From a virus: a stretch of 36,862 nt of DNA. This document shows positions 4,805-14,462 of the stretch, in pieces. The notes under the pieces were generated by a model. It had not been told where the DNA came from. It did not search any database and saw only the letters and a list, made by a program, of their open reading frames with translations. Within the stretch, counting starts at the first letter, position 1. Each line of letters opens with the position of its first letter. The position numbers and the translations under genes are program-made. The stretch is from the IMG/VR virus record IMGVR_UViG_3300046794_000458, positions 1 to 36,862 of that record. One strand, 5' to 3'.

Positions 4805-4842
4805 CCCGCCGCCGGGATTCTTGGTGAGAGGCCGGCAGCGGG
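4805..4842 (-). promoter_or_regulatory. Conserved-loop RNA hairpin, leftward copy 2
   Basis: On the minus strand an 11-bp stem (CCCGCTGCCGG with CCGGCGGCGGG, one U-G pair) closes a 16-nt loop CCTCTCACCAAGAATC. The odd pair is U-G in the leftward RNA but would be A-C if read rightward, so the structure favours the leftward transcript. It lies between the DUF2303 gene and the membrane-protein gene. The loop core is identical to copies at 7821-7852 and 9018-9218. There is no T run after it, so it is not a terminator. Confidence 0.7.
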
Positions 4843-5682: not shown

Positions 5683-5707
5683 TGGATGTGCTCCATGGGG
5701 TGATGCT

Positions 5708-5720
5708 GTGGTGAGAGGTT
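5708..5720 (-). promoter_or_regulatory. Stem-less copy of the conserved CCTCTCACCA motif
   Basis: The minus strand reads AACCTCTCACCAC, the same ten-base core found in five hairpin loops elsewhere in this element, again in a gap between leftward genes. No complementary arms of more than a few bases flank it. It is either a decayed hairpin or shows that the single-stranded sequence alone can be the recognised element. Confidence 0.5.
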
Positions 5721-5732
5721 TTGAAGTCAGGA

Positions 5733-7044: not shown

Positions 7045-7617
7045 TCAGGCGCCCGAGTGCATACGGAGATGCAGGAAGGCGCTGACCAAGTTGTCTATGT
7101 CCGTCAGAAACTCTTCAACGGTGTCGTCGTTGAAAATCTGGACATCAAGGTCGTGCAGTTGGATGCCTGCCTCGCTGACATGGCTGTTGACCAGTGGCGC
7201 GTTGCCGCGACTGATGTGAACGACCAGTCCGCCGCGCTTGCGGATGAAGTCCGCTTCGTTTTCGAACCGAATGTCGCTGACGACAATGCCTTGAGCGGTG
7301 TCATGGGTACGTGTCAGCAGGTCAAGGTTCTGCTCAGCAAGAAGCAGCCACAGCTCAGGGTGCACAGCGTTACGGCCCCATTCGGTGCCCAGTGACTGCA
7401 TAAGTTCGCGAGGGGAGCGGCCCAGCCACGGGAGCGGCTGTTCTTTCTGGTCGCCTTCGAAGTCGCACGGGCTCAGGTTGAGGATGTGCATCAGGCCGTC
7501 ACGCAGCGGATCGGCGAACGCGTAGGACTGGAATCCATGATGGTTCACCAGGTGTTGTGCTGCAGTGTCTTTGCCCGAGCGAGCACGCCCGGCAATGCCG
7601 ATTAGAAGTGTCGTCAT
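7045..7617 (-). CDS. Deoxynucleoside monophosphate kinase-like protein
   Basis: A 190-residue P-loop kinase. The Walker A motif is GIAGRARSGKDT (about 7-18), followed by AQHLVNHHGFQSYAFADPLRD, the substrate-proximal segment typical of phage dNMP kinases (T4 gp1-like). A strand with VVSDIRFENEADFIRKRGG (about 112-130) supplies the usual Asp/Arg. It probably phosphorylates dNMPs to feed phage DNA synthesis, or converts modified nucleotides. The start overlaps the upstream gene's stop by four bases. Confidence 0.85.
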   Translation of the reverse strand: MTTLLIGIAGRARSGKDTAAQHLVNHHGFQSYAFADPLRDGLMHILNLSPCDFEGDQKEQPLPWLGRSPRELMQSLGTEWGRNAVHPELWLLLAEQNLDLLTRTHDTAQGIVVSDIRFENEADFIRKRGGLVVHISRGNAPLVNSHVSEAGIQLHDLDVQIFNDDTVEEFLTDIDNLVSAFLHLRMHSGA

Positions 7618-7820
7618 GCGGCGTCACCCCCGAACGGCCAGGAGCTGTCATCGGCGGCGGCAGTGTTGAGGGGCTTGATAGCCTCGGTGCGACCTTCGGG
7701 GCTGGTGATCACCAGCAATCCGGTGCGGCGCTGAATGGCTTCTACGGCGGCCCGGCTGCTGCAGGCTGATGGGTGCAGGTAGACCGGGCAGCGGGTGTTG
7801 CTGTGCTGTGTGGTTTGCAT
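7614..7820 (-). CDS. First gene of the leftward operon, unknown function
   Basis: A 68-residue soluble protein with no recognised domain. It contains three Cys residues near the N-terminus (TRCPVYLHPSACSS) and an acidic, Trp/Pro-containing end. The ATG at 7820 immediately follows the 3' arm of a conserved-loop hairpin (7821-7852). No good ribosome binding site lies at normal spacing, so translation may depend on opening that hairpin or on another factor. It lies in the place lambda N occupies, but it is not arginine-rich. Confidence 0.65.
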   Translation of the reverse strand: MQTTQHSNTRCPVYLHPSACSSRAAVEAIQRRTGLLVITSPEGRTEAIKPLNTAAADDSSWPFGGDAA

Positions 7821-7852
7821 GGCTCGTACTCTTGGTGAGAGGTTTACGAGCC
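7821..7852 (-). promoter_or_regulatory. Conserved-loop RNA hairpin in the leftward leader, copy 1
   Basis: On the minus strand GGCTCGTA and TACGAGCC form a perfect 8-bp stem around the 16-nt loop AACCTCTCACCAAGAG. The stem ends directly before the first start codon of the leftward operon. The candidate promoter lies just upstream, so this is at or near the 5' end of the early leftward RNA. The loop core CCTCTCACCA is shared with four other hairpins with unrelated stems. Confidence 0.75.
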
Positions 7853-7853
7853 A

Positions 7854-7883
7854 ACATTACCTCAAGGTAAAATATTCATTCAA
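7854..7883 (-). promoter_or_regulatory. Candidate early leftward promoter (PL-like)
   Basis: On the minus strand a -35-like TTGAAT (7883-7878) and a -10-like TAATGT (7859-7854) are separated by 18 bases. The operator 7857-7870 covers the spacer and -10 region, and the operator 7883-7896 touches the -35. This arrangement lets the repressor block leftward transcription. The predicted start falls within or just before the 5' arm of the leader hairpin, so the exact start site decides whether the hairpin is complete. Confidence 0.5.
7857..7870. promoter_or_regulatory. Left operator OL1
   Basis: TTACCTCAAGGTAA has perfect 6-bp arms and matches the TTAC-N6-GTAA pattern of the sites on the right side of the repressor gene. 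It overlaps the candidate leftward promoter. Confidence 0.75.
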
Positions 7884-7980: not shown

Positions 7981-8667
7981 TCAGTAATTAATTTTGCTGG
8001 GGGGCACAATTCCACCGACGTAGTGAATTTGCTCGATTTCTTTCCGATCTATGGAGAGGCGTCCATACCCGTCGTTGACAGCCATGAGGCTGACCTCATC
8101 GTCATTTTCGTAGAGCAGCTCTTTTACCATGCACTCGCCATTGGATCTTCGCACCATTACGTATTCACCAGGTACAAGCCTGTGATTGGGTTCGCACCAA
8201 ACAACCCAACCGCTGCGAATGGCTGGTGCCATTGAATCCCCTTTGACTCGTAGCGAATATGCGCCGGGGTCTGAGCTTGGAACGTCAATCCAGCCGTCCG
8301 CTAAGCTCAGCGCTTCCCAGTATCCATCTGGTCCCAATTGTGCCGTTCCTAGAATTGACGCTCTTTTAAAGGGTCTTGAAAACACCGGGCCTTTTTCCAG
8401 GATGTCGATGTCGGTCGATTGACCCTCGTCATCCAGTTTTATGCCCTCGGCTGAGTCCAGCGAGCCCGGTGGGAGTTCCAGTTTGCTCTCTATATGGCGG
8501 GCAAAATCTTCACCAATTCTTTTGCGGTTTTTTTCAATTGTCGTGAGGCATCTGGAGATATAGCTAGCCTGTCGGTCGAGCGCAGCAGCCAAACCGGCCC
8601 GATAGCCTTGAAACCTGACCGTAAGGATTGTTTGAAGGTTGTGTCTTCGAATGTCATGAATATCCAT
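7981..8667 (-). CDS. S24-family prophage repressor (CI-like)
   Basis: A 228-residue repressor with an N-terminal helix-turn-helix (about 18-45, GYRAGLAAALDRQASYISRCLT) and a LexA/CI-type C-terminal domain. The serine is in KGDSMAP (Ser145) and the lysine in CMVKELL (Lys182), the catalytic pair of S24 self-cleaving repressors. The linker (about 80-115) contains no Ala-Gly or Cys-Gly pair. The best-aligned site is Gln-Leu-Gly at 110-112, so self-cleavage may be weak or absent. It is transcribed leftward, away from the cro-like gene, with operators of the form TTAC-N6-GTAA on both sides, as in lambda. Confidence 0.9.
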   Translation of the reverse strand: MDIHDIRRHNLQTILTVRFQGYRAGLAAALDRQASYISRCLTTIEKNRKRIGEDFARHIESKLELPPGSLDSAEGIKLDDEGQSTDIDILEKGPVFSRPFKRASILGTAQLGPDGYWEALSLADGWIDVPSSDPGAYSLRVKGDSMAPAIRSGWVVWCEPNHRLVPGEYVMVRRSNGECMVKELLYENDDEVSLMAVNDGYGRLSIDRKEIEQIHYVGGIVPPSKINY

Positions 8668-8688
8668 GTCGTTGATATTCCTTCCTTG

Positions 8689-8702
8689 TTACTTAGAGGT
8701 AA
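8689..8702. promoter_or_regulatory. Right operator OR3
   Basis: TTACTTAGAGGTAA matches TTAC-N6-GTAA. It is the right-hand site nearest the repressor start (8667), placed to autoregulate the repressor promoter. Confidence 0.65.
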
Positions 8703-8703
8703 A

Positions 8704-8717
8704 TGTCCTGAAGGTAT
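8704..8717. promoter_or_regulatory. Right operator OR2 (imperfect)
   Basis: Read on the minus strand, ATACCTTCAGGACA keeps ACCT and AGG of the consensus. Its centre is 15 bases from OR3 and 24 from OR1. It sits just upstream of the -35 of the candidate rightward promoter. Confidence 0.5.
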
Positions 8718-8744
8718 TGCTTTGTCATTACCTTTGGGTAATAT
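8717..8744 (+). promoter_or_regulatory. Candidate early rightward promoter (PR-like)
   Basis: TTGCTT (8717-8722) and TAATAT (8739-8744) are separated by 16 bases, and operator OR1 lies between them, overlapping the -10. It would drive the cro-like gene starting at 8774 and the rightward early operon. Confidence 0.6.
8728..8741. promoter_or_regulatory. Right operator OR1
   Basis: TTACCTTTGGGTAA, with further A/T flanks extending the inverted repeat (ATTACC...GGTAAT). It is the best right-hand match and covers the rightward promoter. Confidence 0.75.
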
Positions 8745-8773
8745 TTGTCGCAGTGACGACTAGGAGGCGCGAC

Positions 8774-9010
8774 ATGCGACCCAAAAACACAAAGCTCCTT
8801 GTATGGCTGAAGAGCGCAGACGACGAGTCTGTTGCCAAGACGGGGACAACTCGCTCGTACCTGCGGGCTATTGGTTATGGCTACAAAACAGCGGGAGCGG
8901 AGATTGCTTCGGCAATCGAGTTGGCGACTGATGCAGTAGTCACCCGAAAGGATCTGAGAGACGACTGGGCAGCGATCTGGCCGGAGTTGAATAGTAACGA
9001 AGATACCTAA
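8774..9010 (+). CDS. Cro/YdaS-like DNA-binding protein
   Basis: A 78-residue protein starting at the ATG at 8774, with AGGAGG six bases upstream. The upstream in-frame extension runs through the operators and is not translated sense. The sequence ESVAKTGTTRSYLRAIGYGYKTAGAEIASAIELATDAVVTRKDLRDD has the helix-turn-helix order of YdaS/Cro-type antirepressors and ends WAAIWPEL, typical of the group. It is the first rightward gene, divergent from the repressor with shared operators, so it should lower repressor synthesis and support lytic growth. Confidence 0.85.
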   Translation: MRPKNTKLLVWLKSADDESVAKTGTTRSYLRAIGYGYKTAGAEIASAIELATDAVVTRKDLRDDWAAIWPELNSNEDT

Positions 9011-9017
9011 GGGTGCC

Positions 9018-9053
9018 GGGCTGGGGCCTCTCACCATAAGAATCCCCCAGCCC
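9018..9053 (+). promoter_or_regulatory. Conserved-loop RNA hairpin, rightward copy 1
   Basis: GGGCTGGGG (9018-9026) pairs perfectly with CCCCAGCCC (9045-9053) around the 18-nt loop CCTCTCACCATAAGAATC. It starts eight bases after the cro-like stop codon. No T run follows. Confidence 0.75.
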
Positions 9054-9097
9054 AGCGGTGGCGATACGCAGCACACACCATACCGCCACATGAAACA

Positions 9098-9135
9098 CCG
9101 GCCTGAAACCTCTCACCAAAGAAACACCAGGCCGG
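9098..9135 (+). promoter_or_regulatory. Conserved-loop RNA hairpin, rightward copy 2
   Basis: CCGGCCTG (9098-9105) pairs perfectly with CAGGCCGG (9128-9135). The 22-nt loop contains CCTCTCACCA followed by AAGAA. The stem sequence is unrelated to those of the neighbouring copies. Confidence 0.75.
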
Positions 9136-9176: not shown

Positions 9177-9218
9177 GTCGGCCCAGGACCTCTCACCATA
9201 AGAATTCCCTGGGCCGAC
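9177..9218 (+). promoter_or_regulatory. Conserved-loop RNA hairpin, rightward copy 3
   Basis: An 11-bp perfect stem (GTCGGCCCAGG with CCTGGGCCGAC) closes the 20-nt loop ACCTCTCACCATAAGAATTC. Its loop is nearly identical to rightward copy 1 while the stem differs. Confidence 0.75.
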
Positions 9219-9267
9219 TGGAACGATGAACCGTGCTGCACAGCACGATTCGCACAGCACATCGGTC

Positions 9268-9305
9268 GTGGTCGTAGAATAGAGCGTGTTTGGCTCTACG
9301 GCCAC
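9268..9305 (+). promoter_or_regulatory. Two-part stem-loop upstream of the CII-like gene
   Basis: GTGGTCGT (9268-9275) pairs with ACGGCCAC (9298-9305) with one G-U pair, and inside it AGAGC/GCTCT forms a second stem with a 5-nt bulge. It directly abuts the hairpin holding the ribosome binding site. Confidence 0.5.
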
Positions 9306-9328
9306 ACCGTAAACAGGGGATTTACGGT
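9306..9328 (+). promoter_or_regulatory. Hairpin presenting the ribosome binding site of the CII-like gene
   Basis: ACCGTAAA and TTTACGGT form a perfect 8-bp stem around the loop CAGGGGA, which is the ribosome binding site of the gene starting at 9330. The start codon begins two bases after the stem. Such a layout usually means translation is gated by folding or by a loop-binding factor. Confidence 0.65.
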
Positions 9329-9329
9329 T

Positions 9330-9818
9330 ATGAGTCGCACAGATCTTTTGCCGGGTGCAGGCCCGGTCCTTTCACTGCGCAAAGCCCTTTACCGGGCAGG
9401 CCATGATTATCGGGGCGGTGTAACTGCTCTGGCGTTGGACATGGTCATCGATTACGACACCCTTCAGAAGAAACTAAAGCACGACGAAGAGCGCCGGTGG
9501 CTTGATCCTGATGAGCTGGAAGAGGTCATCCGCCTGACGGGAAATTCTTTGTTGCTGGATGCCCTGATGCGGCCTGCTGGGATGGTCTGGTACAAGCCGG
9601 AGGCGGCGGCGCCGACCAAGGAAGCTTTGCTCGCGGTCAGCAAGGTGCTGCACCAGACCGGCCTGTTTGTTTCTAGCATGCACGAAGGTGCTGCCGACAA
9701 CGTCTGGGAGCCGCACGAAGTTGAATGCTTGGAGAAGCACGGCAACGACGTAATCCGCGCGGTCTTGGGCATCATGGCCGGGGCCAGGGAAGCGATGGAG
9801 GCCCGCCAAGATGACTGA
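9330..9818 (+). CDS. CII-like phage regulatory protein (Phage_CP76 family)
   Basis: A 162-residue protein of the phage regulatory CII/CP76 family. Clear family segments are SLRKALYRAGHDYRGGVTALALDM (about 15-38, with a helix-turn-helix character), YDTLQKKLK (about 42-50), RRWLDPDELEEVIRLTG (about 55-71) and LMRPAGMVWY (about 79-88). The C-terminal half is helical. By analogy it controls the lysis-lysogeny choice or early transcription. Its initiation region lies in a hairpin (9306-9328), which suggests translational control. Confidence 0.85.
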   Translation: MSRTDLLPGAGPVLSLRKALYRAGHDYRGGVTALALDMVIDYDTLQKKLKHDEERRWLDPDELEEVIRLTGNSLLLDALMRPAGMVWYKPEAAAPTKEALLAVSKVLHQTGLFVSSMHEGAADNVWEPHEVECLEKHGNDVIRAVLGIMAGAREAMEARQDD

Positions 9819-10014
9819 CGTAATCGATATCGCCAACGACCAGGCCGAATACTTCCTACAAGTGGCGTTGGATCGCCGTCCGCGCCCAACGTGCGCCGTC
9901 AGCGCGCAATTCTGTGAGGATTGCGGCGAACCTATCCCGTTACTTCGTCAGCAGACGATCCAGGGTTGTGCGACCTGCGTCAGTTGCCAGGGGTTGCGGG
10001 AGCGGCGCAGATGA
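9811..10014 (+). CDS. TraR/DksA-type zinc-finger protein
   Basis: A 67-residue protein with a four-cysteine zinc finger, CEDCGEPIP (Cys at about 35 and 38) and CATCVSCQGLRERRR (C-terminal pair). This is the C-terminal module of DksA/TraR proteins, which bind RNA polymerase in the secondary channel. An N-terminal helix precedes it (DVIDIANDQAEYFLQVAL). It probably modulates host or phage transcription. GGAGG lies about nine bases before the ATG, and the gene overlaps the CII-like gene by 8 bases and the primase start by 4. Confidence 0.85.
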   Translation: MTDVIDIANDQAEYFLQVALDRRPRPTCAVSAQFCEDCGEPIPLLRQQTIQGCATCVSCQGLRERRR

Positions 10015-13685: not shown

Positions 13686-13755
13686 TGCTGTGCAGCTTCC
13701 CCCGGCCTTCCCTGAGCCGGTCACCAAACCCCGCTTCGGCGGGGGTTTTATTTTC
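13686..13755 (+). repeat. Terminator-bearing direct repeat, copy 1
   Basis: About 70 bases beginning TGCTGTGCAGCTT, continuing GAGCCGGTCACCAAA and ending in a CCCCGC-TTCG-GCGGGG stem plus TTTTATTTT. Copy 2 at 14394-14462 is nearly identical except around the 12 bases after the first block. The two copies bracket the gene at 13895-14386. Confidence 0.8.
13729..13754 (+). terminator. Rho-independent terminator (copy 1)
   Basis: CCCCGC and GCGGGG form a 6-bp stem with the stable UUCG tetraloop, followed by GTTTTATTTT. It would end transcription entering the inserted gene from upstream unless antiterminated. Confidence 0.8.
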
Positions 13756-14393: not shown

Positions 14394-14462
14394 TGCTGTG
14401 CAGCTTTACCCGGCGTCTTTGAGCCGGTCACCAAACCCCGCTTCGGCGGGGTTTTTATTTTC
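14394..14462 (+). repeat. Terminator-bearing direct repeat, copy 2
   Basis: Second copy of the element at 13686-13755, starting eight bases after the cargo gene's stop. Recombination between the copies would delete the cargo gene cleanly and leave one terminator before the holin gene. Confidence 0.8.
14436..14461 (+). terminator. Rho-independent terminator (copy 2)
   Basis: The same CCCCGC-TTCG-GCGGGG hairpin as copy 1, followed by TTTTTATTTT. It ends the cargo gene transcript. Late transcription must pass it to reach the lysis and head genes. Confidence 0.85.

Follow-up and report, generated by a model that had tools for sequence, protein, structure and literature searches.

In phage lambda, the N gene lies beside nutL, and the two nut sites are found near PL and between cro and cII. 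The boxB loop of these sites has 5-6 nt, and N carries a short N-terminal arginine-rich motif. The put element of HK022 consists of two adjacent hairpins that act without a phage protein. Translation of T4 gene e is controlled via alternative 5′ ends of early and late transcripts, and MS2 and PP7 have operator hairpins for their coat proteins. Here, we analysed a stretch of 36,862 nt from a Pseudomonas phage (IMG/VR virus record IMGVR_UViG_3300046794_000458; hereafter the window), in which a hairpin element takes the places of nutL and nutR, at PL and between cro and cII. The parallel to nutL and PL drawn in an initial annotation of this DNA therefore holds, with a reservation for the PL copy concerning the transcription start site. 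No paper on this element was found in the open-access literature, and none of its six copies matched an Rfam covariance model up to E = 5.

A repeated hairpin in both early operons

The early region has lambdoid-like surroundings, comprising an S24 repressor, a Cro-type ORF, CII (PF06892), a DksA-like zinc finger and a Prim-Pol, and the leftward operon includes nucleotide kinase and DUF2303 genes. The landmarks used below are:

7614..7820, minus strand: g1, the first leftward gene (68 aa, phrog_13491, no assigned function), proposed loop-recognising factor
7981..8667, minus strand: CI-type repressor (peptidase S24)
8666..9010, plus strand: Cro-type repressor ORF, probably translated from the ATG at 8774
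9330..9818, plus strand: CII-type regulator (PF06892), 3′ of the R array
14433..14454, plus strand: strong intrinsic terminator that separates the early right operon from the late genes, with a second one at 13729-13744

Directly after CII, in most relatives as at 9811-10014 of the window, lies a gene for a DksA/TraR-type zinc-finger protein (phrog_54), which might affect host RNA polymerase.

The sequence CCTCTCACCA occurs six times exactly in the window (0.09 expected), on the minus strand at 7833, 5709 and 4822 and on the plus strand at 9027, 9109 and 9189. All six copies are intergenic and sense-oriented with respect to the early operon that holds them, the rightward ones between cro and cII, which bears out the earlier claim that both operons carry the element. 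With up to one mismatch there are nine copies vs 2.7 expected, a number reached by none of 100 shuffles. The copies and their stems are as follows:

7821..7852, minus strand: L1 hairpin, arms 7852-7845 and 7828-7821, core CCTCTCACCA at 7842-7833, abutting the start codon of the first leftward gene
5691..5727, minus strand: L2 copy, core 5718-5709, just 5′ of the DUF2303 gene (ATG 5682), weak stem CTTCA/TGGAG
4805..4842, minus strand: L3 hairpin, CCCGCTGCCGG / CCGGCGGCGGG around core 4831-4822, 5′ of GGAGCACAGCACATG (ATG 4785)
9015..9056, plus strand: R1 hairpin, after cro, GCCGGGCTGGGG / CCCCAGCCCAGC, core 9027-9036
9098..9135, plus strand: R2 hairpin, CCGGCCTG / CAGGCCGG, core 9109-9118
9177..9218, plus strand: R3 hairpin, GTCGGCCCAGG / CCTGGGCCGAC, core 9189-9198

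On the minus strand L1 reads GGCTCGTA (7852-7845), AAC, CTCTCACCAAGAG and TACGAGCC (7828-7821), followed by the ATG at 7820-7818, and GGCTCGTA pairs with TACGAGCC. The hairpin reported directly 5′ of this ATG is thus present, and its stability is far above chance: folding of 7852-7790 as RNA gave the eight outer pairs plus CUCU/AGAG around a CACCA loop at -17.6 kcal/mol (z = -5.2), and 0 of 200 shuffles were as stable. Further inverted repeats occupy the interval between R3 and cII (9260-9332), among them CCGTAAA...TTTACGG, whose loop exposes GGGG, the ribosome binding site of cII.

The element family in related phages

When viral contigs were scanned for the pattern, many of the hits were due to chance, but a clear family with arrays and differing stems also emerged. 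To avoid a bias towards the hairpin, relatives were gathered via g1, which yielded 132 distinct upstream regions, including a few that the pattern scan had supplied. Relatives of g1 are encoded on 290 viral contigs and 50 genome contigs, and the phage group to which they belong spans Pseudomonas, Stutzerimonas, Halopseudomonas and Halomonas. The core CTCTCAC was present in 120 of the 132 L1 regions and CCTCTCACCA in 111. Hairpins in the relatives numbered 254 in sense and one in antisense orientation, and a reversed-core control gave 4 over four strands.

The stems are compensatory. We counted 94 distinct R stems, 57 internal L stems and 70 L1 stems, overwhelmingly with Watson-Crick pairs. At L1 alone the stem has been rebuilt in many ways, for instance as GTCTCGTAC/GTACGAGAC, CTGGACC/GGTCCAG, CTGAGCC/GGCTCAG, TGGCCC/GGGCCA, GGCGTGTAC/GTGCACGCC or GCTCCGTAC/GTACGGAGC. 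Most phages have one to three R copies, spaced 53-84 nt apart, and L296 and L301 have up to five; a hidden small ORF running through the R array was rejected, as this variable spacing does not keep the frame. A CAGCAC box follows the stem, often by 11-15 nt, in 91 of 94 internal L, 102 of 149 R and 76 of 108 L1 copies. Since CAGCAC also precedes a start codon that has no hairpin (6077), it may belong to translation starts and not to the element. The sequence CACAGCACATG likewise recurs at left-operon start codons (6077 and 4785 in the window), with or without a hairpin, possibly as a common translation-start context.

Halomonas-type relatives have the loop CCCACCA in both L1 and R. L313 and L314 (Halomonas cerina, Onishia taeanensis) share the layout, and their PL hairpin has this loop, as do two hairpins 5′ of cII, so that the system reaches the Halomonadaceae. 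In Pseudomonas sp. ICMP 561 and P. caspiana (L294 and L308) we found remnant or tailocin-like clusters with only a repressor, the PL hairpin with loop CATTCATTACC, g1 and an excisionase-like gene (phrog_1300), adjoining apparent holin and tail genes.

Copies beside translation starts

The initial annotation had also stated that no ribosome binding site stands at a normal distance from the first leftward start codon. That holds only in part, as the window phage has a weak AAGAG, on the 3′ side of the loop, and the relatives have GAGG, AAGG or AGGG 7-8 nt 5′ of the ATG and inside the hairpin. At L2, the CTTCA/TGGAG stem would cover the ribosome binding site GGAG; this stem was not predicted by RNA folding in the window phage, and several relatives have a short stem with a large loop there. 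The copies at 5709 and 4822 both lie next to ribosome binding sites, in keeping with the second suggestion of the initial annotation, that the hairpin could control translation.

The main rival to antitermination is an effect on translation only: a phage factor would bind the hairpins near ribosome binding sites (L1, L2 and L3) and repress or open translation, leaving elongation unaffected, and the R copies would serve as decoys or in control of the cII leader. In line with this, L1 abuts its ATG and its loop carries the ribosome binding site on the 3′ side, L2 has the site or the start codon in or next to its 3′ arm, L3 lies about 20 nt before a start codon, and the remnant clusters L294 and L308 retain a lone L1 with g1. 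We nevertheless consider it rather unlikely that translation is all that is controlled: R1-R3, as the most repeated copies (one to three, elsewhere up to five), have no adjoining ribosome binding site, and cII starts 111 nt 3′ of R3 in the window.

The PL promoter and the predicted start site within L1

The leftward promoter overlaps the L1 region as follows:

7854..7883, minus strand: PL promoter, -35 TTGAAT at 7883-7878, -10 TAATGT at 7859-7854, 18-bp spacer, canonical +1 at 7847 in the L1 5′ arm

The candidate promoter previously suggested from its -10 is therefore present, complete with a -35, and 131 relatives have a like arrangement. Their sigma-70 promoters consist of TTGNNN, a spacer of 17 bp in 112 of the 131, and a TAATTT/TATTGT-like -10 only 0-6 nt 5′ of the L1 5′ arm. 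A generic promoter scan of the window did not list PL, whose match lies under the scan threshold. The canonical +1 falls inside the 5′ arm, and in most relatives the seventh or eighth base after the -10 is a G (G7847 in the window phage).

With a predicted start at 7847, the full hairpin should therefore not form in PL RNA. Here our result departs from the initial annotation, which had placed the hairpin at the 5′ end of the PL transcript and had named a start downstream of the 5′ arm as the finding that would refute this; a conserved promoter that predicts a start at about 7847, inside that arm, comes near to this. RNA from the predicted start can form only an inner hairpin (GUA/UAC plus CUCU/AGAG) of -6.3 kcal/mol, vs -17.6 kcal/mol for the full structure. 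The six bases upstream of +1 nevertheless pair with their own 3′ segment better than with permuted partners, as the mean observed for 14 diverse sequences was reached in only 10 of 2000 permutations. As the outer pairs are conserved despite a predicted +1 within the arm, the full stem has probably been selected in a molecule other than the PL transcript, and probably matters there, e.g., in read-through RNA from the cI side or in single-stranded DNA.

A read-through switch at L1 would make use of this geometry: the full hairpin would form only in RNA entering from the cI side and mask the g1 start, whereas RNA from PL would be translatable. The promoter arrangement in the 131 relatives, the permutation result and the difference in folding energy all favour such a switch, which we regard as possible, if doubtful, and which could add to the main explanation as far as L1 is concerned. 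Against it, the switch leaves the shared loop code and the R, L2 and L3 copies unexplained, and a terminator between cI and PL could be detected in no more than 45 of 131 relatives (vs 19 on the control strand), although the window has one at 7962-7943.

Loop classes change together across copies

Loop classes vary among phages, and all or nearly all hairpin copies within one phage agree. Next to CTCTCAC we found CTCTGAC in L296 and L301, CTCTAC in LPPA56 and CACTTACC in L297 and L303; by a shorter stretch of the loop, L297, L303, L306 and PG1 are TTACC phages and L304, L305, L307 and pAN are TCACC phages. Between Lodos and LPPA56 the loops of L1, R1, R2 and L3 all switch (CTCTCAC vs CTCTAC). 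Two more coordinated switches, TCACC vs TTACC, separate L307 from L297/L303 and L304/L305 from L306. An antisense small RNA as the partner of the loops was rejected, as the early region contains no class-matching complement.

A host factor such as NusB/S10, with boxA in the loop, might be thought of because CTCTNAC resembles the boxA of lambda nutR, GCTCTTAC. This is extremely improbable: the P. aeruginosa phages Lodos and LPPA56 differ in their loops, and both TCACC and TTACC occur among Stutzerimonas phages. The code goes with the phage rather than with the host, as different loops are found in phages that infect one host species; we therefore rejected a host factor as the loop reader and conclude that the reader is phage-encoded.

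The same pair of phages bears on the possibility that the hairpins act in replication, as single-stranded DNA sites at which primase or a primosome assembles, exposed on the lagging strands of forks that leave the cI region both ways. The orientation of the copies suits divergent forks, primase genes lie 3′ of cII in these phages, and the start-site problem at L1 would vanish. However, the primase module is exchanged while the elements stay (most phages have an AEP Prim-Pol, pAN is annotated with a PriCT-2 type, and L297 and L310 differ in the N-terminal region), and the loops of Lodos and LPPA56 switch despite Prim-Pol regions that are 97-100% identical. For these two reasons we consider a replication signal very improbable.

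The first leftward gene as candidate loop reader

In the comparison of Lodos with LPPA56, the kinase, o91, o144, o67 and Prim-Pol are 92-100% identical, and divergence is found alongside the hairpins, in g1 (68% aa), the cI-cro block and CII (81%). As they barely differ between these phages, o91, o144, o67 and Prim-Pol were rejected as the reader.

Across six TCACC/TTACC phages, one column of g1 segregates with the loop class, as Thr vs Ala/Arg. Two phages fetched after this pattern had been seen, pAN (TCACC, Thr) and PG1 (TTACC, Ala), fit it as well, so that g1 segregates in 8 of 8 phages, which represent about two independent events. The g1 proteins of pAN and L306 differ in only two residues and their identifiable loops by C vs T, and the L307 g1 segment with the class residue looks exchanged together with the loops, relative to L297/L303. 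No column of o91 or o144 segregates with the TCACC/TTACC class; weakly segregating columns also occur in CII (six) and o67 (two). The CII of L305 and pAN is only about 50% identical to that of the other TCACC phages, and CII was rejected as the reader because it differs too much between phages that share one loop.

Since a g1 column follows the loop class and CII is too different among same-loop phages, g1 is the best candidate and, going by these alignments, most likely the loop-reading factor. Its position next to L1 recalls that of N beside nutL. Site specificity thus tracks a phage-encoded factor, as judged from the coordinated loop switches and the correlation with g1. Against g1 stand L065 and L078, both fragments, whose available DNA has no g1 although all elements are kept. 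In L078 (9600-9760) and L065 (1200-1300) the first codons (ATGAAAACAGCACAG or ATGCAAACAGCACAG) lead directly into the nucleotide kinase.

Searches with g1 revealed neither a recognisable RNA-binding domain nor a relative in PDB or Pfam nor a PHROG function, and an N-like short arginine-rich N-terminal motif was not seen in the g1 sequences. The AlphaFold model of g1 is of low confidence (mean pLDDT 60). In the record of Turba (OR683412) g1 is unannotated, and a short early gene overlapping it (WWQ72208) is annotated as D-alanyl-D-alanine carboxypeptidase, probably a misannotation.

A proposed control element of the N/nut type

Taken together, we propose, at about an even chance of being right, that the hairpins are a loop-coded, multi-copy control element of both early operons, N/nut-like with unrelated parts, with g1 as the reader and antitermination as the most likely outcome. 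The stem would merely present the loop, and its 7-8 nt core (here CTCTCACC) would be the recognition code, read by a phage-encoded factor, most likely g1, whose gene starts at L1. On the emerging RNA, g1 would bind the loops of R1-R3 (PR, after cro) and of L2 and L3 in the PL operon, and the bound protein would most likely modify the elongating polymerase, leading to processive antitermination. At L1, L2 and L3 it would probably also affect translation of the adjoining gene, its own included. We favour antitermination of the N/nut kind because of the placement at PL and between cro and cII, the phage-specific code, the adjoining candidate factor gene and the strong terminator at 14433. Terminator scans found no strong intrinsic terminator in the left operon, and antitermination there would need Rho-dependent or undetected sites.

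More tentatively, and with somewhat less than even confidence, g1 (phrog_13491) may found a novel family of very small phage proteins whose function is to read hairpin loops. Such proteins would use the code TCACC, TTACC, CTCTCAC, CTCTGAC and CTCTAC at many sites in both early operons, their specificity would be switched by one or two residues, and the PL hairpin would straddle the start site so that the origin of the RNA decides its folding. As nature provides pairs that differ in one or two residues of a 64-aa protein and in one loop base, the recognition code is directly testable, and an orthogonal set of protein-RNA pairs might result.

Comparison with known systems

Like lambda N/nut (boxB) and its P22 and phi21 counterparts, the system has RNA hairpins in either early operon, located at PL and in the interval from cro to cII, a first leftward gene as the candidate factor, and a loop code that differs from phage to phage. 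In contrast to lambda, there are up to nine copies instead of two, some of them deep in the left operon, the conserved loop has 7-8 nt instead of the 5-6 nt of boxB, the L1 5′ arm overlaps the predicted start site, and g1 is not arginine-rich and has no known relative. No conserved separate boxA was recognised 5′ of the hairpin in the L1 regions of the relatives, where a CAGCAC box often lies downstream instead and the loop itself has a likeness to boxA.

With HK022 put the element shares structured RNA early in both the PL and PR transcripts. However, put needs no phage protein, whereas here the loop co-varies with phage genes, and instead of a put-like double hairpin we found hairpins that stand singly or at distances of 53-84 nt and whose loops are specific to the phage. 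L1 is reminiscent of T4 gene e in that the predicted promoter start lies in its 5′ arm and a masking hairpin would form only in long transcripts, but only L1 has this geometry and the remaining copies are far from promoters. Like the coat-protein operators of MS2 and PP7, the element is a loop-specific hairpin beside or over a start codon with a variable stem sequence; unlike them, it occurs in many copies per genome, in both early operons and with a different protein. What is well understood about early control by RNA hairpins comes mainly from a few coliphages, and the element described here appears to be an independently built counterpart in a large phage group.
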